Assembly: GCA_021498125.1 (NCBI GenBank)
Contig: JAIZWL010000004.1
Location: forward strand, 145,192-209,191
Length of the DNA stretch: 64,000 nucleotides
From: Candidatus Thorarchaeota archaeon
GTDB lineage: Archaea; Asgardarchaeota; Thorarchaeia; Thorarchaeales; Thorarchaeaceae
Direction of reading: 5' to 3'
Of this stretch, positions 19,814 to 57,432 are shown in pieces (position 1 is the stretch's first letter; every line of letters starts with the position of its first letter). The notes beneath the pieces are model-generated. The model was not told where the DNA came from and searched no databases. It saw nothing but the letters and a program-made list of their open reading frames with translations. The translations under genes and the position numbers were made by a program.

Positions 19814-19863
19814 CCGCCGCCCATATCAAATAAAAAGTGAGTTGAATTATTGGAGTGCAATTA

Positions 19864-20400
19864 GTGACCGGTAGCGAAAACAACAACGTACCGTTAAGGA
19901 AAGTGATTCTTGTGGGATCTGGCGCAGTCGGCAAGACGACACTTGCGACACGTCTGATAACTGGGGCGTATGTCGAAACCACAATGACAGTGGGACTTAA
20001 TGTTGACACATGGACTGTAGAGGATTCTACCAAGAAGACCTCCATTAAGATAGTGTCGTTTGATCTGGGAGGCCAAGAGCAATTCAGATTTTTTCAGCAA
20101 GAACTTGTCAAGGGGGCGCAATTTGCAATAATAGTGTTTGATGTTTCCAGATACGAATCATTTCTTGAGCTCGAAGAGTGGATGGAATTCGTACAAGATA
20201 TCCCTGAGAACTGTAGGGTATTAGTTGCCAACAAGGCGGATATTTCCAGCATTGTTTCTGAAGAGGACATCCAAGAATTTTCAAAAAAATACAACCTCCC
20301 CGTAATCCGGACCAGTTGCGTGACCGGGAAAGGTATTAAGGAACTTGAGAATATCCTTTGGGAATCACTTAAAGGAAACGGTGTCTGTGGCAATACGTAA
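19864..20400 (+). CDS. Small Ras-superfamily GTPase (Arf/Rab-like), first gene of the TRAPP-like operon
   Basis: 178 residues from GTG 19864 (TGGAG eight bases upstream; an in-frame GTG at 19855 is the alternative). G1 is GSGAVGKTT at 18-26, switch I threonine in TTMTVGLNVDTW, G3 DLGGQEQF with the catalytic glutamine present, G4 NKAD, and G5 RTSCVTG. It should bind and hydrolyse GTP. The C terminus ends without a prenylation cysteine box, though CGNT is close to the end. Twenty-seven bases downstream is a CxxC/winged-helix protein and then a TRAPP/Bet3-like protein. GSGAVGKT and TSCVTG are also in the GTPases at 53950 and 56764. Confidence 0.92.
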   Translation: MTGSENNNVPLRKVILVGSGAVGKTTLATRLITGAYVETTMTVGLNVDTWTVEDSTKKTSIKIVSFDLGGQEQFRFFQQELVKGAQFAIIVFDVSRYESFLELEEWMEFVQDIPENCRVLVANKADISSIVSEEDIQEFSKKYNLPVIRTSCVTGKGIKELENILWESLKGNGVCGNT

Positions 20401-20427
20401 AGGTCTGATCATTGGGGTGAATTGCTC

Positions 20428-20871
20428 ATGGTGCTAATTCATGTGGACTGCCCAGTCTGCTCAAAGAATGTGGAAATCAAAATTGACGAGGAGAAGATTC
20501 AGAGCTCGATTCGCAATCCAGTCCCAATCGTATTCACACACGGAAGCCCTGAACACGCTCTCACCGTGTTTATAGACAAGGAGTACCATGTTCGAGCAGT
20601 GAGCGGTGCAAACATAGTACAAAGAATCGCTGAAACTCGGGCAAAACAAAAGCCTCTCACAAGAAGGTACGTGCCAGTCCCAAAGACGCAAATTCCTAAT
20701 CTGAAAGGACTCGATCCAGTGCAACTGAAAATTCTTGCTCTCGCAGATGGCAGTACAAGCGTCGAGGAGCTAGCGAGCATATTGGGGGTCCCAGCAATGA
20801 GAGTGAAGATTGTCTGTGAACAACTGGTCAGACTTAAAAAATTAGATAAAATCAAAGTGGTGATGGAATAA
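20428..20871 (+). CDS. CxxC-domain protein with C-terminal winged helix, GTPase partner candidate
   Basis: 147 residues from ATG 20428, GGGGTGA nine bases upstream. The N-terminal domain, about 1-72, has VDCPVCSKNVEIKIDE, then FTHGSPEHALTVFIDKEYHVRAVSG. The C-x2-C plus H-x4-H pattern and the strand order match the N-terminal domain of the 308-310 residue proteins at 53019 and 55828. Residues about 92-147 form a winged helix (LKILALADGSTSVEELASILG...LVRLKKLDKIKV). Only four candidate metal ligands are visible, so zinc binding is inference. It overlaps the TRAPP-like gene by one base (TAATG). It may connect GTPase state to another partner, or bind DNA. Confidence 0.65.
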   Translation: MVLIHVDCPVCSKNVEIKIDEEKIQSSIRNPVPIVFTHGSPEHALTVFIDKEYHVRAVSGANIVQRIAETRAKQKPLTRRYVPVPKTQIPNLKGLDPVQLKILALADGSTSVEELASILGVPAMRVKIVCEQLVRLKKLDKIKVVME

Positions 20872-21485
20872 TGGTGAAGAATTGGTTGATCATCCAAGGA
20901 TCAAAATTAAAGAAGTACACATCAGAAAAGGTCCTCTCATTGACGATTACAAAACTCAATGAACTTCTTATTGAAAATTTGACGGAGATGGCTGGAGAAG
21001 AAGAAACCATCCAGAGAGTGTTTAAAGGTGGAATGAAGCTAGGAAATGAATTCATGATGGAACTCTCAGCACATCTCATTAACGACATTGAAACCGTGCC
21101 AGCATATGGTGAGGCGGCATGGCTCCTGTTTGCCGGGAAGGCACCAACATGGCAAAAGTGGGAGAAGACAGAATTCGATGGTCATAAGGTATGGATCTAC
21201 CGCTGGGCTGATGACGACTGTCCGTTCTGCAGAAATATTCAGTTTCCAAAAAAGTTCTGTGCATTTCCAGCAGGAGCGTTTCAAGGAGCGGCCCAGACAT
21301 GGTCGGCCCTAATGAACGATGGAGCATATCATGTTCTTAGTAGGGAAGTAAAATGCAAGGCACAAGGCGCCGATGCCTGTGAATACGTCCTCGTGTTGGT
21401 AAAAAAAGAAACCCCACTGGAAGTGCTCAAGGAGCATATGCCTGAACTCTTTGAGGATCTCCAGCTGGGATTTGTAGACTACTAA
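20871..21485 (+). CDS. TRAPP/Bet3-like (V4R-fold) protein
   Basis: 204 residues. The N-terminal LSLTITKLNELLIENL and FKGGMKLGNEFMMELSAHL fit the first helices of Bet3-type TRAPP subunits and of V4R proteins, which share a fold. The second half has DDDCPFCRNIQFPKKFCAFPAGAFQGAAQ, a G-x-x-x-G-A segment, and CKAQGADACEYVLVL, which is the V4R hallmark of cysteines in the last strands. The cysteines suggest a metal or small-molecule site. In eukaryotes TRAPP complexes activate Rab GTPases; here the gene follows a GTPase in one operon with overlapping junctions. A GEF or scaffold role is inference. It overlaps the convergent reductase gene by four bases. Confidence 0.75.
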   Translation: MVKNWLIIQGSKLKKYTSEKVLSLTITKLNELLIENLTEMAGEEETIQRVFKGGMKLGNEFMMELSAHLINDIETVPAYGEAAWLLFAGKAPTWQKWEKTEFDGHKVWIYRWADDDCPFCRNIQFPKKFCAFPAGAFQGAAQTWSALMNDGAYHVLSREVKCKAQGADACEYVLVLVKKETPLEVLKEHMPELFEDLQLGFVDY

Positions 21486-31274: not shown

Positions 31275-31859
31275 TTAACCGATGAAGATCTCGCTCTTGT
31301 CATCTTCAGCGTCGGCCATCATCTGCAAGATCTTCTCGAAGGCCTCATGAATATTCTCACCAGTCTTTGCAGAGGTCTCGATGAACACCGCAGGAATCTC
31401 CAATTTTTTAATGAAATAATCGGCGAATTGCTGCCCTTCTTTAGAACTCACCTGTTGATCAGGGGGCACAGTTCCACGGAGATCAATCTTGTTTCCGATA
31501 ATAATTGTGGGCGGTAGCCGACCCATATTTCGATAAGCTTCTACAAGCCACTTTGACGCATTATCGAATGTCTCTCGATCGATGACCGAATATACGAGGA
31601 GGATACCATTTGACCCGTGATAGTAATGGCCTCTCACTTTTTCAAAAGTGGGTTGGCCAGCAAGATCCCAGATGACAAATTTGATAATCTCGTCACGAAA
31701 GAGAACTTTCTTTGTAGCCAGATCAACTCCAATTGTGGCAAGATGGCCCTCGATAAAATCTTCACCTAGATAGTTACGTCGGATGCTTGTCTTCCCTACT
31801 GCCCCATCCCCAATCAATACTGCCTTCAAGACCTTACTGCCATCATCTTGATCTCTCAT
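31275..31859 (-). CDS. Rab/Ras-like small GTPase
   Basis: 194 residues from ATG 31859; upstream in-frame codons add an unlikely segment. All G boxes are intact: GDGAVGKTS (17-25), switch I ATIGVD with threonine, WDLAGQPTF with catalytic glutamine, GNKIDL and ETSAKTGENI. The switch II AGQPTFEKVRGHYYHGSNG and the effector residues are close to eukaryotic Rabs. There is no C-terminal cysteine motif, so membrane attachment is not by prenylation. The divergent neighbour is a polyprenol-kinase-like membrane enzyme, 321 bases away. Confidence 0.93.
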   Translation of the reverse strand: MRDQDDGSKVLKAVLIGDGAVGKTSIRRNYLGEDFIEGHLATIGVDLATKKVLFRDEIIKFVIWDLAGQPTFEKVRGHYYHGSNGILLVYSVIDRETFDNASKWLVEAYRNMGRLPPTIIIGNKIDLRGTVPPDQQVSSKEGQQFADYFIKKLEIPAVFIETSAKTGENIHEAFEKILQMMADAEDDKSEIFIG

Positions 31860-32180
31860 CTGACCAGTCACTCCCAAGAGGCCACTTCCAAATTGAAGCC
31901 CAATTTCAATTGGAGCAGGTATCTTAAATAGATAGACTCTAGATAAGGTTACCGAATTAAAGCGGTTTAACTTTATCGCTAGAGTGCAGGGAGTTATCGG
32001 TAGGTTCTGATAGACATTTCCCAATAAATAATAAGAATAATACCACTGCACTATCAATTGTACAACAGGATTACGCCAACAAAGATAAAGAAATTAATTT
32101 TTCACCCGCATTATACCGTCAGATGTGACCATCACAACAAACCAAAAAAGGAACCATGTGAGAGCAGCCAGTGGTATAAC
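31860..32180. other. Divergent intergenic region between GTPase and polyprenol kinase-like gene
   Basis: 321 bases, AT-rich. It holds presumably two promoters; on the reverse strand several TATA-like stretches occur around 32020-32040 (AATAAATAATAAGAATAA). No RNA gene, repeat or ORF that I trust is seen. Confidence 0.4.
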
Positions 32181-51702: not shown

Positions 51703-51951
51703 TATATCTCATACAGGTATATGGTTTGATAATAGTTTGATGTATTTATGTGCGCCCGAATGACAGCGTTCCACAGGTGGATCGTAGCCTGACGTGCACT
51801 ACTTCCAAAAAAAGCGGAAATTATCATCTCAAGCATGAAATATATCTATAATGAAAAATAATATGGTCCTACGGGATATCGACTCACCATTCACTTCATA
51901 GATCGTTGAAGAACTATAAGCGTCACATCTGATGATGACGCTAGTAATATT
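51703..51951. other. Intergenic region after the operator array
   Basis: About 250 bases, AT-rich. On the reverse strand it is the region downstream of the methyltransferase at 51952-53001 and contains a T-run (TTTTTTT near 51809). No open frame or RNA gene is evident. Confidence 0.35.
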
Positions 51952-53001
51952 CTATTTTATTACCTCAAAGGCCGAGAGAGGTGTCGCGAGCCGTATCTTC
52001 TTGGCCCCGAGCTCTTTAGCCCATTGCCGAAAGTCATCTACATGAAAGTGGCCATAAGCTCCTTCGACCACCTTGATATGAATCTCACAGAACTTGTTTG
52101 CACCGGGATAAAAGTTCTCAGTACCAAAGACAATACCACCGGGTTTTGTCACCCGGAGCATCTCTTTCAGGGCGGACTTTGGGTCAGTCCAGTGAAGTAC
52201 CATAGAGGAGTAGACATAGTCAAAGGTTTCATCCTCAAAGGGGATAGACTCCGCAAACCCGTGTTTGAACTCTGGAGGGAACTTCTCTAGCATCTCCGGG
52301 TAATTCGAGTGATTCCCCTTACTACCCAAATGGGTCTTAATCATATTTGGAAACTCATCACGAGCAATTGTAAGAAGGCGATCATTGGGCTCGATTCCAA
52401 CAATTCGAAACGGAGAACCTTCGTACATATGGCCCCTCGTATAGTAGTAGGTCCAAATAGCGGCTGTGCCCCAACCAGTTCCCGAACCAACATCTAGAAA
52501 GGCTCCTGGCTTATTCCAAGCGTTCGTCAGAGCGAAAGCAGTACGCCTGATCTGTTCATAGAGTTGCGATGAGAGAGCGTCATCCCAGTTGAAAAGATTC
52601 ATCCCGCCAGTGAAAGTGAGAGGCCTTCCTCGCAGTCTGTCGGGAATCGCACGGGCATGATCTTGCCAGAGATCGTCCATTGTCCCCTTGAAGGGAGCGG
52701 GAAGCACCCAACCATCTTCAATGTGTTCTTCAGACTGATAGCGGTTCCCGTCAACCTGATGAAGAATACCATCTTCAACCAAGATGCCTAAGAGATAATC
52801 AAGAAATTCGGGATCGGAATATCCAAAATGTGAGAGCATATCATCAATAGTCCTTGGACGCAGAAGATATTCAAACCACCCCTCATCACGAAGAACGCGG
52901 ATCACATTCCCACGATAATATGCATCAACGTCCTTCCGTATCTTACTTACATTAATTCCAACCTTCATTAGTTCTCTCCATGCTCGTGCTTTTGATGCCA
53001 T
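51952..53001 (-). CDS. SAM methyltransferase with N-terminal winged helix, cassette copy 2
   Basis: 349 residues from ATG 53001, chosen because it begins MASKARAW like the paralog and has GGGGGT at the right distance; ATG 53007 is the alternative. Residues about 20-100 form a winged helix (VIRVLRDEGWFEYLLRPR...FLDYLLGILVEDGIL), as in O-methyltransferase dimerisation domains. The Rossmann methyltransferase is at 165-345: FLDVGSGTGWG, IVGIEPNDRLL, SIPFEDETFDYVYSSMVLHW and MLRVTKPGGIVFG. Third gene of a GTPase cassette. The methyl acceptor may be a lipid or a protein; not known. Confidence 0.82.
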   Translation of the reverse strand: MASKARAWRELMKVGINVSKIRKDVDAYYRGNVIRVLRDEGWFEYLLRPRTIDDMLSHFGYSDPEFLDYLLGILVEDGILHQVDGNRYQSEEHIEDGWVLPAPFKGTMDDLWQDHARAIPDRLRGRPLTFTGGMNLFNWDDALSSQLYEQIRRTAFALTNAWNKPGAFLDVGSGTGWGTAAIWTYYYTRGHMYEGSPFRIVGIEPNDRLLTIARDEFPNMIKTHLGSKGNHSNYPEMLEKFPPEFKHGFAESIPFEDETFDYVYSSMVLHWTDPKSALKEMLRVTKPGGIVFGTENFYPGANKFCEIHIKVVEGAYGHFHVDDFRQWAKELGAKKIRLATPLSAFEVIK

Positions 53002-53018
53002 AGCCATACCCCCTGTTC

Positions 53019-53945
53019 TTATCCGAGAAGGCCCCTCCGATTGATGAAGTCCACCATTTCAAAGGCCTCTGTAAGTTCAGACCAGTGACCATCCTCAAGA
53101 AAATCAATTAATGAGGACTGGCCCATAAGGAGTGGTCTGAGAAGGACCTTTGCGATCGGCAGTTTGGCACTCACCCGCTCCACAATCTTGGTTATTCGAT
53201 CAGAGTAAGGTGTAGCGCTGATGGTAAAAATCATCGAGTCCGTAACCAGCCGGTGTAGCGATTCGGGATCCGTCTGAGGATTATCATCAAGCGCGCGTAA
53301 AGCGACATTAATCGCACGTTGATTAGTGTAAGCCGCTCCATGATCCTCAAGCAGACCAGTCGCCAGACCCTCAAGAGCTTGAATGATACGGTCGTCCCTG
53401 ACAGAGGCAAAGACCACTCGCTCCTTTGAGACCCAGATGTGCATATCCATATCTGCAAGGGAGATCACAAGATATCGTTGCTCCGTGTCATAGACTTTTT
53501 CAGCCTCTTCCACACGTTCCAGTATGAGGCGGGCTAATTCAGCAGGTTTGAATTCGTCAGGACAGAGATAGGTTTGCACCCAGAAACGTTGGCGATCAAC
53601 AAGAATCAGAATACGAATGTGCTTGTGGTGAGTCTGTTGGATCTCTTGGCTTGGATGCACCACTAGGTTCTGATGTGCTCCACTCCCGATTGAAGTAAGA
53701 GGCTCAACGTATGCATCACGATAGCCTCGAAAGAGACCCTTGTGATCGACAACAATAGCATTGTAATGCCGCTCGTTCTGTGCTTCATGCACTACACGGA
53801 CAGTAGTCAGCTGCATTCCGAAATAAGAAGTGTGCGAAGTCTTTGATTCGTAAGTTGAGGGGTCATCAATACTAAAGCGCACAGTTTTCCCACAGATCTT
53901 ACATTTGAACTCGGTCAGGCCACCAGCCTTATCTGTTCTCAGCAT
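53019..53945 (-). CDS. CxxC-domain, longin/roadblock-like GTPase-cassette protein, copy 2
   Basis: 308 residues. The N-terminal domain (about 12-85) has FKCKICGKTVRFSIDDPS then VVHEAQNERHYNAIVVDHKGLFRGY; the C-x2-C and H-x6-H could bind zinc. About 105-210 is a mixed sheet/helix region (ILILVDRQRFWVQTYLC...LVISLADMDMHIWVSKERVV) that recalls longin or roadblock domains. The rest is helical, ending FLEDGHWSELTEAFEMVDF. It is closely related to the protein at 55828. It sits five bases from the GTPase stop, so a direct complex is plausible. No named family; fold names are inference. Confidence 0.68.
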   Translation of the reverse strand: MLRTDKAGGLTEFKCKICGKTVRFSIDDPSTYESKTSHTSYFGMQLTTVRVVHEAQNERHYNAIVVDHKGLFRGYRDAYVEPLTSIGSGAHQNLVVHPSQEIQQTHHKHIRILILVDRQRFWVQTYLCPDEFKPAELARLILERVEEAEKVYDTEQRYLVISLADMDMHIWVSKERVVFASVRDDRIIQALEGLATGLLEDHGAAYTNQRAINVALRALDDNPQTDPESLHRLVTDSMIFTISATPYSDRITKIVERVSAKLPIAKVLLRPLLMGQSSLIDFLEDGHWSELTEAFEMVDFINRRGLLG

Positions 53946-53949
53946 CTGC

Positions 53950-54576
53950 TCATTTTTCCCCCATCAAGTGATCAACAAGCCAACGTCGTAATTCATCAAG
54001 TCCCTCACCAGTCACGCAACTTGTCTCAAAATAGCCCTGAATCTGAGGCATGTTTTTGAGCAATATGTCTACTAATTCTTGATCAAAGGAATCAGGAAGA
54101 TCCACTTTATTTCTAATGAGAAGATACTGTGGTTGCACACCGTGTTGATATGTTAAAGAACCATCATTAATCAGACCCATCCATTTCTCAATATCCATCA
54201 GTGATTGTAAATCGTCAGAACTGAACACAAGTAGTACAAGATCCACCCCACCGAATGCAAGTCGTTCCGCATCTCGAAAAGGATGCACTGGTTGGTCAAT
54301 CTGACCAGCAACGTCTATGACCTGATACGAACCAACGTGATTCTCTTTTGCGAGATCTGACATTTGCAAGGATTCGATCTCGAAAAATAGAGTCCGATGG
54401 TACTTGGTCACGGTCTCATCAAGAACACCATGCTTGAGCACGTTCAACAGAGTCGTTTTTCCAACAGCTCCAGAGCCCGCAAGAAGCATCTTCTGAATCT
54501 GGCGTCTTTGTTTCATTTGATTCAAGAGAGAGGCGGATTTTGTAGATGCTCTTGTACTAGATATCGGCATATCCAT
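53950..54576 (-). CDS. Small GTPase (Arf/Rag-like), cassette copy 2
   Basis: 208 residues from ATG 54576 (a TTG at 54585 is possible). G1 GSGAVGKTT at 34-42, switch I YHRTLFFEI, G3 DVAGQIDQP with glutamine, G4 RNKVDLPD and G5 ETSCVTGEG. Between G3 and G4 it has HPFRDAERLAFGGVDLVLL, a pattern shared with copy 1. A 33-residue basic N-terminal extension precedes the core (SSTRASTKSASLLNQMKQRR). No lipid-anchor cysteine at the C terminus. First gene of a GTPase/CxxC/methyltransferase transcript, separated from cassette 1 by a terminator. Confidence 0.92.
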   Translation of the reverse strand: MDMPISSTRASTKSASLLNQMKQRRQIQKMLLAGSGAVGKTTLLNVLKHGVLDETVTKYHRTLFFEIESLQMSDLAKENHVGSYQVIDVAGQIDQPVHPFRDAERLAFGGVDLVLLVFSSDDLQSLMDIEKWMGLINDGSLTYQHGVQPQYLLIRNKVDLPDSFDQELVDILLKNMPQIQGYFETSCVTGEGLDELRRWLVDHLMGEK

Positions 54577-54707
54577 TGTAAACAACTCGCATCATTCCCA
54601 ATTAGTCCCATGATATTTATGTAAATGACATATATAAGGCTTTTTATAAATCTACTACGACTTCGAAATGTTTGAGGTGGCATGAAGACTGTATCGTTTG
54701 TATACAA

Positions 54708-54744
54708 CAGAAAAAAAAGCCGGCTCAGACCCTTCATGAGCCGG
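54708..54744 (-). terminator. Terminator between the two cassettes
   Basis: CCGGCTCA (54720-54727) pairs with TGAGCCGG (54737-54744). On the reverse strand it is followed by TTTTTTTTCTG. It ends the transcript of the first methyltransferase. Confidence 0.75.
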
Positions 54745-54766
54745 AGTATATTTTGGAAAACAGACA

Positions 54767-55807
54767 CTATTTGAGGATCTGAAATACAGAGATGGGTGTG
54801 GCTATTCGAATTTCTTTTGCCCCGAGTTCCTTTGCCCATCGTCGAAGATCATCTCTGTGAAAATGACCGAAAGCACCCTGCACCACCTTGAAATGAATCT
54901 CTCCAAACTTGTTAGCATCAGGAAAGAAATTCTCAGTACCAAAGACATATCCGCCAGGCTTGGTCACCCTGAACATCTCACGAAGAGCCTCCTTCGGTTG
55001 AGTCCAGTGAAGCACCTGTGATGCATAGACATAGTCAAAGGTCTCATCATCAAAGGGAATCGACTCTGCATAACCGTTCTCGAACTCAGGAGGAAATCTC
55101 TGTAACATCTGAGTAAAATCGATGTCATCACCAAGATGCCTCCGGAGCATGCTGTGGAATTCTTCTCGCGCAATGTTCAGAAGTCGATCATTAGGTTCAA
55201 TTCCCACAATCCGTAAGGGCGATCCCTCTTTCATGTGACCCTTCTTGAAATAGTACGCCCAGATAGCGGCGGTGCCATACCCTGTTCCAGCACCGACATC
55301 AAGAAAGTAGCCGGGTCTGTTCCATGCACCAGTATATGCAAAGGCACTACGGCGGATCTGTTCATACATATGATTAGAGAGAGCGTCATCCCAGTTGAAG
55401 AGATTCATGCCGCCAGTGAACTTTATGTACTTCCCACGCAGTCGATCAGGAATCGCTCGCGCATGATCGGCCCAGAGTTCTTTCATAGTGCCATCAAAAC
55501 AGGCAGGAAGTGTCCACCCATCCTCAACGTGTCCATTCACACGATACCGAATGCCGTCCTCGTGTATGAGAGTCTTGTCCTCAACCAAGATGTCTAGCAA
55601 GTAGGCCAAGAATGCAGAATCCGTGTAACCGAATTGAGTGAGAATTTCAGCGGCCGTCCGTGGTTGAGAGAGGTATTCAAACCACCCCTCATCACGAAGG
55701 ACACGAATGATATTCCCACGGAAAAACGCATTGATCTGCGTTCTGAGTTTACTCACGTTCAGACCTATCTTCAATAGTTCTTTCCATGCTCGTGCTTTTG
55801 ATGCCAT
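54767..55807 (-). CDS. SAM methyltransferase with N-terminal winged helix, cassette copy 1
   Basis: 346 residues, beginning MASKARAWKELLKIG like copy 2. Winged helix at about 20-98, then the methyltransferase: FLDVGAGTGYG near 167-177, IVGIEPNDRLLNIAREE, SIPFDDETFDYVYASQVLHW and MFRVTKPGGYVFG. The C-terminal NFFPDANKFGEIHFKVVQG and GAFGHFHRDDLRRW are shared with copy 2 and may be a lineage-specific acceptor-binding region. Third gene of the cassette; it starts 20 bases after the stop of the CxxC gene. Acceptor unknown. Confidence 0.82.
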   Translation of the reverse strand: MASKARAWKELLKIGLNVSKLRTQINAFFRGNIIRVLRDEGWFEYLSQPRTAAEILTQFGYTDSAFLAYLLDILVEDKTLIHEDGIRYRVNGHVEDGWTLPACFDGTMKELWADHARAIPDRLRGKYIKFTGGMNLFNWDDALSNHMYEQIRRSAFAYTGAWNRPGYFLDVGAGTGYGTAAIWAYYFKKGHMKEGSPLRIVGIEPNDRLLNIAREEFHSMLRRHLGDDIDFTQMLQRFPPEFENGYAESIPFDDETFDYVYASQVLHWTQPKEALREMFRVTKPGGYVFGTENFFPDANKFGEIHFKVVQGAFGHFHRDDLRRWAKELGAKEIRIATPISVFQILK

Positions 55808-55827
55808 CCTACAACCTCCATTCCAAT

Positions 55828-56760
55828 TTATCCAAGCAGACCCCTCCGGTTGATAAAGTCCACCATCTCAAAGATTTCTCCGACCTTAGTCCAATTCCCA
55901 TCTTCTAGAAGATCGAGCAATGATGATTGCCCTGTAAGCAATGGCCTGAGAAAAGCCTTCGCAATCGGGAACCGCTTACTCACTCGTTCGACAATACTAT
56001 TCACCCGATCTTGAAACGGAGTAGAGGCGATCGTGAAGTTCATTGGGTCGGTGACCAGTCGGCGAAGAGCCTGAGGATCGGGGTCTGGAACATCATCAAT
56101 AACTCTTAGCGCGATCTCGATTGCACGCTGATTGCTAAAGGGAGAAGTGGGACTGGTCGTCATGAGCCCATCCACCAGTCCTTCTAGAACAGAGAGCTTT
56201 GAGGGCGACTGAACTGAGGCAAAAACAATTCGTTCATTCGAGTGCCAGACATGCAGATCCATATCTGCAAGACTGAAGTCAAGTCGCCGTTGTGGTAGTT
56301 CGTAAATGCGCTCAGCCTCCTCCACTCGTTCCATAACAAGGCGCGCTAGCTCGGCGGATCTGAATGTCGCCGGACAAAGATATGCCTGTACCCAAAAGTG
56401 CTGTCGATCAACAACGATGAGCAGCTTCACGTATTCATGCGGAGTCAAAGAAACACCTTGACTTGGATGCACGACCAGACTCGGCTGTACATCTTTGCTC
56501 TCGGAAACAAGAGGCTCGGCGTATGCATCACGATATCCTCTGAAGAGACCTTTCTGATCAATGACAATAGCGTTATGATGCCGCTCGTTTGATATGTCAT
56601 GCGATACTCGAACGGTCGTCAATTGCATTCCAAAATACTCCCGCTGCGGAGTCTTTGATTCGTAGGTCTCCGGATCATCAATACTGAAGTGAATTGTTGC
56701 CCCGCAGATCTTGCATTTGAACTCAGTAGTCAAATCACCAGCTTGGCCCGTCCTCTGCAT
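55828..56760 (-). CDS. CxxC-domain, longin/roadblock-like GTPase-cassette protein, copy 1
   Basis: 310 residues. N-terminal FKCKICGATIHFSIDDPETY, then VSHDISNERHHNAIVIDQKGLFRGY; this C-x2-C plus H-x6-H layout is the same as in copy 2 and resembles the protein at 20428. The next section, VKLLIVVDRQHFWVQAYLC...LDFSLADMDLHVWHSNERIVFAS, gives a possible longin-type fold. The helical C-terminal region ends FEMVDFINRRGLLG, identical to copy 2. It lies three bases after the GTPase stop codon. Role inferred: effector or regulator of the GTPase. Confidence 0.68.
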   Translation of the reverse strand: MQRTGQAGDLTTEFKCKICGATIHFSIDDPETYESKTPQREYFGMQLTTVRVSHDISNERHHNAIVIDQKGLFRGYRDAYAEPLVSESKDVQPSLVVHPSQGVSLTPHEYVKLLIVVDRQHFWVQAYLCPATFRSAELARLVMERVEEAERIYELPQRRLDFSLADMDLHVWHSNERIVFASVQSPSKLSVLEGLVDGLMTTSPTSPFSNQRAIEIALRVIDDVPDPDPQALRRLVTDPMNFTIASTPFQDRVNSIVERVSKRFPIAKAFLRPLLTGQSSLLDLLEDGNWTKVGEIFEMVDFINRRGLLG

Positions 56761-56763
56761 GAG

Positions 56764-57432
56764 TCATCCATCCTTTTGTATGTGTTCCACGATCCACCGT
56801 CGCAACTCGGCGATACCAGTACCATTCAGGCAACTGGTCTCAAAATAGGCTTGGATCTGTGGCTTGTTCTTGAGAAGTAAATCAACAAGCTCGTGATCAA
56901 ATGCATCAGGTAGGTCAACCTTGTTTTGTACAAGAACATACATGACCTCACCCTTATCTGCATCTTGCTTTTGCCCCTCGTCAATAAGAGCAATCCACTT
57001 CTCGATATCCAGTAATGATTGCAAATCATCCGAACTGAATACCAAAACAATCAGATCAACACCTCCGAAGGCCAGACGGTCAGCATCCCGAAAAGGATGA
57101 ACAGGCTGAGTCAGCTGACCCGCAACATCAATGACTTGAACGACTCCCACCACATCCCCATCTGAGAGATCATCCATCTTCAATGTGTCGATATTCAAGA
57201 ACAATGTTCGGTGATACTCCTGCTTTACATCCTCTAGAGTCCCTCGTTTTAGCACGTTCAAGAGGCTCGTCTTTCCAACTGCACCAGAACCAGCAATCAA
57301 CATTTTTCGGACTCTGTGCCTTCGTTTTATCCGATCTAACAGAGATTTAGTGCCCGTTGATTTGCCAGAGCTTGTCATAGGTATATCCTTCTCAACTACC
57401 TGCATCAGTCCCATATCAATGAGATTCCCCAT
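56764..57432 (-). CDS. Small GTPase (Arf/Rag-like), cassette copy 1
   Basis: 222 residues from ATG 57432; ATGs at 57414 and 57378 give shorter forms and a TATA-like TTATATTT near 57450 favours a start after 57430. G1 GSGAVGKTS (48-56), switch I YHRTLFLNI, G3 DVAGQLTQP, G4 QNKVDLPD and G5 ETSCLNGTG. The N-terminal extension is basic (RIKRRHRVRKM). HPFRDADRLAFGGVDLIVL and FSSDDLQSLLDIEKW match copy 2. No C-terminal cysteines. First gene of cassette 1. Confidence 0.92.
   Translation of the reverse strand: MGNLIDMGLMQVVEKDIPMTSSGKSTGTKSLLDRIKRRHRVRKMLIAGSGAVGKTSLLNVLKRGTLEDVKQEYHRTLFLNIDTLKMDDLSDGDVVGVVQVIDVAGQLTQPVHPFRDADRLAFGGVDLIVLVFSSDDLQSLLDIEKWIALIDEGQKQDADKGEVMYVLVQNKVDLPDAFDHELVDLLLKNKPQIQAYFETSCLNGTGIAELRRWIVEHIQKDG

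Follow-up and report, generated by a model that had tools for sequence, protein, structure and literature searches.

Tandem operons of a Ras-like GTPase, a CxxC protein of predicted zinc/longin type and a methyltransferase in a Thorarchaeota genome, and their linkage across Asgard archaea

The stretch of DNA analysed here (64,000 nucleotides, hereafter the window) comes from a Candidatus Thorarchaeota archaeon (assembly GCA_021498125.1, contig JAIZWL010000004.1; G000 contig C4:145192-209191 in our genome set), whose genome comprises 3.11 Mb in 14 contigs and which belongs to family f1, as does genome G010. Two three-gene operons lie in tandem on its minus strand, running from position 57432 to 51952, each coding in the same order for a small Ras-like GTPase, a protein with a CxxC motif (CxxC protein) and a methyltransferase (MT), hereafter the trio. 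The original prediction of six open reading frames (ORFs) with identical gene order in both copies was confirmed at the following coordinates, all on the minus strand. In copy A, the GTPase gene (56764..57432) encodes 222 amino acids (aa), or 216 aa if translation starts at 57414; it is followed after 3 nt by the gene of the CxxC protein (55828..56760, 310 aa), for which a zinc, a longin-fold and a helical C-terminal domain are predicted, and after another 20 nt by that of the MT (54767..55807, 346 aa). In copy B, where the GTPase start codon is likewise ambiguous, the GTPase (53950..54585) comprises 211 aa from a TTG or 208 aa from the ATG at 54576, and the gaps to the CxxC protein (53019..53945, 308 aa) and on to the MT (51952..53007, 351 aa) are 4 nt and 11 nt.

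A terminator is present between the operons (54706..54745), as had been predicted; it consists of a hairpin with an 8-pair stem followed by U8, with a folding energy of -14.9 kcal/mol (z -2.6), and was missed by a simple hairpin scan, probably because its outer loop measures 9 nt. Two further signals on the same strand are weak, namely a TATA-like box (TTTATAAA, 54643..54650) upstream of copy B, which is the sole match in the window against 0.6 expected by chance, and a terminator-like hairpin 3' of copy B (51919..51942), to be read against a scan of the region that found 8 such hairpins with 5.9 expected.

Corresponding genes of the two copies are paralogous, in agreement with the original prediction, with identities of 60% for the GTPases, 63% for the CxxC proteins over their full length and 70% for the MTs, and with MASKARAW and FEMVDFINRRGLLG common to both copies. 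Nonsynonymous (dN) and synonymous (dS) divergence, calculated with NG86, amounted to dN 0.285 and dS 1.996 for the CxxC proteins and dN 0.205 and dS 2.482 for the MTs; because dN is far below dS, these copies appear constrained. For the GTPases, dN was 0.30 and dS was not computable.

Both GTPases belong to the Ras superfamily, as judged from their motifs and profiles. The G1, G3 and G4 motifs (GSGAVGKT, DVAGQ, NKVD) are intact in both copies, and both exceed the cut-off of Pfam Ras (copy A, 5.9e-12; copy B, 4.7e-10); copy B also matches Pfam Arf at 5.3e-10, and copy A scores 44 bits with TIGR00231 (cut-off 42.5). A Rab-type prenylatable cysteine is absent from both C-termini, the chains ending in QKDG and MGEK. 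Unlike Rag proteins, neither GTPase carries a roadblock domain behind its G domain, the last helix of which closes the chain, and the scores with the Gtr1_RagA profile stayed below threshold (12.9 and 13.7 bits, cut-off 22). The Arf profile was above its cut-off of 22.3 bits in both copies (A, 32.7; B, 39.5), with Ras scoring better in copy A and level in copy B; at the N-terminus, the position of the myristoylated helix of Arf proteins, the prediction is of low confidence and the start codon uncertain. Elsewhere in the window, a further Ras/Rab-like GTPase ORF was recognised by eye at 31275-32057 on the minus strand; it was absent from the members found for the trio subfamily.

The CxxC protein has no match to Pfam at E ≤ 1 for copy A and a single sub-threshold one (E 0.23) for copy B; it has no NCBIfam match at E ≤ 0.01, and its family yielded a best E of 1 in a sequence search of the PDB. 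An AlphaFold2 (AF2) model of copy A reached a mean pLDDT of 83.9 and a pTM of 0.64. Residues 11-85 (56506..56730) are predicted to form a zinc beta-domain with C16, C19, H54 and H61 as probable ligands; these are invariant in all 40 alignment rows, and over the 49 zinc-domain rows of the fetched loci described below they are retained in 48, 48, 47 and 49 cases, respectively. The middle domain (about residues 109-225, 56086..56436) shows a b-b-a-b-b-b-a-a order in the model and matches solved longin/roadblock chains, including those of Mon1-Ccz1, TRAPP and MglB, so that the originally proposed longin-like nature of the protein is borne out as a predicted fold. Residues 226-310 (55831..56085) are modelled as helices and constitute the domain that accompanies the MT. 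No fold class is claimed for the two outer domains, as none of the structural matches listed covers residues 11-85 and the C-terminal domain was modelled only within the whole chain.

The third protein of the trio is a class I S-adenosylmethionine (SAM)-dependent MT according to its Rossmann-type profile and motif I (DVGAGTG in copy A; also DVGSGTG). Its Methyltransf_11 domain (copy A, 1.5e-17; copy B, 3.1e-17) follows about 150-165 extra N-terminal residues, which contain an FNWDD block, and both Methyltransf_11 and Ubie_methyltran of Pfam are above cut-off. While the assignment as MT thus held, the winged helix that had been predicted along with it is unproven: scans of five pieces of the N-terminus gave sub-threshold matches for two of them (ArnR1-like WHD, E 0.069; Dimerisation, E 0.095). 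The MT stays below every NCBIfam cut-off listed and is no UbiE/MenG member by that measure (TIGR01934, the best, 40 of 158.35 bits); the nearest models, all far below cut-off, are UbiE/MenG, BioC, arsenite and fatty-acid MTs. When the trio proteins were scanned with PADLOC, the MT matched mad2 at 4.8e-11, only within its generic MT domain (residues 161-289), and the copy A GTPase and CxxC protein gave no match. One MT homologue of 509 aa, P0213, carries a fused Polyketide_cyc2/lipid-transport domain (4.7e-9). Relatives of the trio proteins with an organism name are from Thorarchaeota or other Asgard archaea (18 of 19 for the MT), with the sole exception of P0201. This MT, labelled as Methanobacteriota and 51% identical to copy A, may reflect transfer, a mislabelled bin or a wider spread.

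Co-location of the three genes in other Asgard genomes, on which the original prediction depended, was found in several families. In the following counts, which include the window's own genome, the CxxC protein was matched in 11 of 99 genomes by a single-sequence search and in 37 of the 227 genomes of the phylum by a profile search; a contig profile search with a two-row CxxC alignment returned only two loci, both of the long tetratricopeptide repeat (TPR) type described below. The MT was found in 23/227 genomes (E ≤ 1e-50) and the GTPase subfamily in 16/227, at 21 places (E ≤ 1e-35, with up to 13 candidates per genome scored). All three genes are patchy: none was matched in the remaining three genomes of the genus to which the window belongs, and the CxxC protein is unmatched in most of the window's family, too. 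GTPase subfamily, CxxC protein and MT occur together in four families (f1, f15, f23, f24) and the CxxC-MT pair in six (additionally f2 and f28). Genomes encoding the C-terminal domain, among them G122 by virtue of L083 and L103, possess the MT in 21 of 21 cases, compared with 2 of the 206 other genomes. Genome G022 (one contig, 86% complete) carries a short form of the CxxC protein with a GTPase and no MT.

To analyse which domain goes with which neighbour, 58 stretches were fetched and their ORFs scored with profiles of the GTPases, of the zinc, longin and C-terminal parts and of the MT. This gave 54 proteins with any domain of the CxxC protein, 52 in the fetched stretches and 2 in the window. 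A CxxC match of 56 residues (G168:C460) was left out of the fetched stretches, and the CxxC protein of L079 was left out of the counts by the start-codon rule and is covered by a profile match. L083 was counted as lacking the C-terminal domain though it is cut by the contig end, its other half probably being L103.

The two ends of the CxxC protein are associated with different neighbour genes. All 21 places of the GTPase subfamily are in CxxC loci, 19 of them within 11-85 bp of the CxxC match and the remaining two being tandem second GTPases at 899 and 1158 bp in the same loci. Across all architectures, 40 of 51 zinc-domain proteins have a GTPase ORF on the same strand within 150 bp, where about 6.8% would be expected by chance, as estimated from 22 further GTPase ORFs over 646 kb of the stretches. 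The MT, in turn, follows the C-terminal domain: it lies on the same strand within 150 bp in 19 and within 1 kb in 21 of the 26 proteins with this domain, and anywhere in the stretch in 25 of the 26, versus none of the 28 zinc proteins without it (Fisher test, relatedness ignored: 1e-10 within 1 kb, 2e-14 anywhere). A GTPase neighbour is present in 25 of these same 28, which comprise 22 long proteins, the short form L030, L085 with a zinc domain and short tail, L086-L088 with other tails, and L083. Conversely, L082, which may be frame-broken, and L084 have longin and C-terminal parts and no zinc match, and keep the MT with no GTPase next door. The long proteins themselves (L031-L038, L089-L102) measure 738-765 aa where complete, contain TPR in all four tested and have a GTPase neighbour in 19 of 22 cases; several f2 stretches hold one or two further GTPase ORFs upstream.

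Gene order varies across loci while gene content is retained. The order GTPase-CxxC-MT was found in the f1 loci having an MT and in L071, and MT-GTPase-CxxC in L072 and L074; in L079 the MT is convergent to GTPase-CxxC and in L070 it is divergent at a distance of 2.5 kb. There are two tandem MTs in L023 and two GTPases each in L021 and L022. A second CxxC domain at the N-terminus, giving tandem zinc-type domains, characterises L073 and the complete f2 proteins (L075-L078, L080, L081); the MT adjoins this protein in L073, L076, L077 and L080 and lies 4-6 kb off in L075 and L078. In L027 (G009:C5), the GTPase match contains two stops (TGA, TAG), and the frames of the CxxC protein (306 aa) and MT (348 aa) are open. 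Distance matrices of the three families, compared over 12 trios with the L027 GTPase left out, correlated with r of 0.89, 0.83 and 0.68, and the Mantel p of 2e-4 for each pair is the minimum attainable from 5000 permutations.

Since the set is kept together in several Asgard families, it may well work as a switch. We propose, with a probability of roughly 0.4, that the trio is one module in which the Ras-like GTPase would control the MT through the middle protein. The three proteins would form a physical complex, with the zinc/longin part of the CxxC protein as docking face for the GTPase and the helical C-terminal domain as dock for the MT; the output would be methylation, or placement of the MT, gated by GTP. 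The substrate may be a small hydrophobic, lipid- or quinone-like molecule and not a protein, a guess based on the domain fused to P0213 and on the small-molecule MTs among the nearest profile models. The tandem copies would then be two parallel versions of one switch, diverged yet constrained. A role in membrane identity, which the original prediction had considered, is unsupported, because nothing places any trio protein at a membrane and the GTPases lack the prenylatable cysteine.

Several observations weigh against such a GTPase-controlled MT. Seven loci with zinc, longin and C-terminal domains (six in f2, one in G155) have no GTPase of the family next door, with only 703 bases available upstream in L073 and with a 517 aa protein giving a weak GTPase match 303 bp upstream in L078. 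The GTPase subfamily was found at E ≤ 1e-35 in no f2 genome nor in G155, so that some versions of the set do without it. In the stretch of L081 the C-terminal domain occurs and an MT is missing, and in L104-L109 an MT is present and a CxxC protein is not visible, L108 and L109 starting or sitting on short contigs. The MT P0213, the short CxxC form P0029 and the GTPase P0088 are each on a contig of 3292 bases, perhaps one and the same, so one short CxxC form may adjoin an MT. A GTPase-CxxC fused chain (P0148), in which the in-frame TGA stop of the GTPase is read as W into the CxxC start, was folded with a pTM of 0.53 and no indication of a fixed arrangement, from a faulty alignment in which 35 of 39 CxxC rows had 118-144 N-terminal residues aligned onto the GTPase half; among the 50 Foldseek matches listed for this model there were only GTPases. 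Finally, since neighbouring genes are acquired and lost jointly, co-occurrence overstates the proof of function, and as the Fisher and binomial tests ignore relatedness, they establish linkage and not contact.

It is rather unlikely that the substrate of the MT is instead the GTPase or the CxxC protein, so that protein methylation would set the switch and not be its output, with the longin-fold protein as a regulator akin to a guanine nucleotide exchange factor (GEF) or GTPase-activating protein (GAP). Longin/roadblock proteins are mainly GEFs and occasionally GAPs, according to the sections of PMC10933270 drawn on here. The Mon1-Ccz1, TRAPP and MglB matches would fit such a regulator. Among 13 PDB matches to the MT profile, the best was LahSB, presumably a peptide O-methyltransferase, but this match is limited to 65 residues in the generic core of the MT. 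Protein methylation is further opposed by the GTPase-linked zinc proteins, which have no MT when the C-terminal domain is missing, by the retention of CxxC-MT without the GTPase in f2, and by the lipid/small-molecule-type domain of P0213. To a similar degree, it appears improbable that the MT serves a quinone, lipid or secondary-metabolite pathway in which GTPase and zinc/longin protein assemble, metallate or place it and no signalling occurs; the nearest MT models, a sterol MT among the 13 PDB matches, the tandem MTs of L023 and the Polyketide_cyc2 fusion would suit a biosynthetic role, but the Ras-type motifs of the GTPase are intact, including the glutamine of DVAGQ, and the same kind of zinc domain accompanies GTPases that have no MT nearby. 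That the genes are merely co-inherited as a patchy accessory cassette, for example a defence or conflict island with components that need not be in contact, is quite improbable in spite of the scattered distribution, the interrupted GTPase of G009 and the mad2 match, given that the latter is restricted to the generic MT domain with no PADLOC match for the other two proteins, that content is retained through reshuffled gene order, and that domain-specific choice of partners is not expected of a mere island.

A wider version of the GTPase-controlled module is more doubtful than the module itself, though ahead of these alternatives: the zinc domain may dock Ras-like GTPases to interchangeable outputs (longin plus MT dock, TPR array, winged helix) in a plug-in adaptor system, GTP-switched methylation of a lipid or small molecule being one output. 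We know of such GTPase effector logic from neither eukaryotes nor bacteria.

No described system with the trio set emerged from the limited literature searched (titles and abstract openings), as the original prediction had supposed. Longin/roadblock platforms (TRAPP longin pair-Rab1, Mon1-Ccz1-Rab7, Ragulator-Rag and the Asgard proteins in the cited sections of PMC10933270) likewise combine a longin fold with a small GTPase, and their chains match structurally; in the trio, however, the longin domain sits between zinc and helical domains in one protein, and its gene accompanies a single GTPase subfamily dedicated to it, with an MT belonging to the set as well. MglA-MglB of Myxococcus likewise couples a Ras-like GTPase from a prokaryote to a roadblock protein (structural matches 6h5b, 6izw, 6hjm); to our knowledge, MglB lacks a zinc domain, a helical extension and an MT. 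UbiE/MenG-like class I MTs share the Rossmann MT domain, whereas the trio MT has extra N-terminal residues with the FNWDD block, and of the MADS defence system the trio MT matches only the MT-domain part of mad2. Asgard genomes are rich in small GTPases and longin/roadblock proteins; in MK-D1, GTPase genes are generally outside operons with roadblock, longin or TRAPPC3 genes, and genome layout is uninformative on GTPase-longin/roadblock pairing and control (PMC10933270, same sections). The trio links a single GTPase subfamily with a single longin-fold protein and a single enzyme in four Asgard families; as a set of three defined proteins whose output, methyl transfer, can be assayed, it makes the question of what Ras-like GTPases did before eukaryotic membrane traffic directly testable.

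CxxC domains of this kind may extend beyond the trio. In hhalign comparisons, the trio zinc domain aligned with the CxxC domain of another protein of the window (at 20422) with a probability of 28%, the latter with the first zinc domain of the f2 proteins with 81%, and this f2 domain with the trio zinc domain with 72%, which is suggestive of one superfamily. The window domain that gave the 81% belongs to a second GTPase operon, at 19855-21485 on the plus strand. This operon codes for a small GTPase, a CxxC protein of 149 aa whose tail resembles a winged helix (HTH_47, 1.3e-4, 21.9 of 27.1 bits), and a protein similar to V4R (7e-7, 29.7 of 31 bits), a domain related to TRAPPC3/Bet3.

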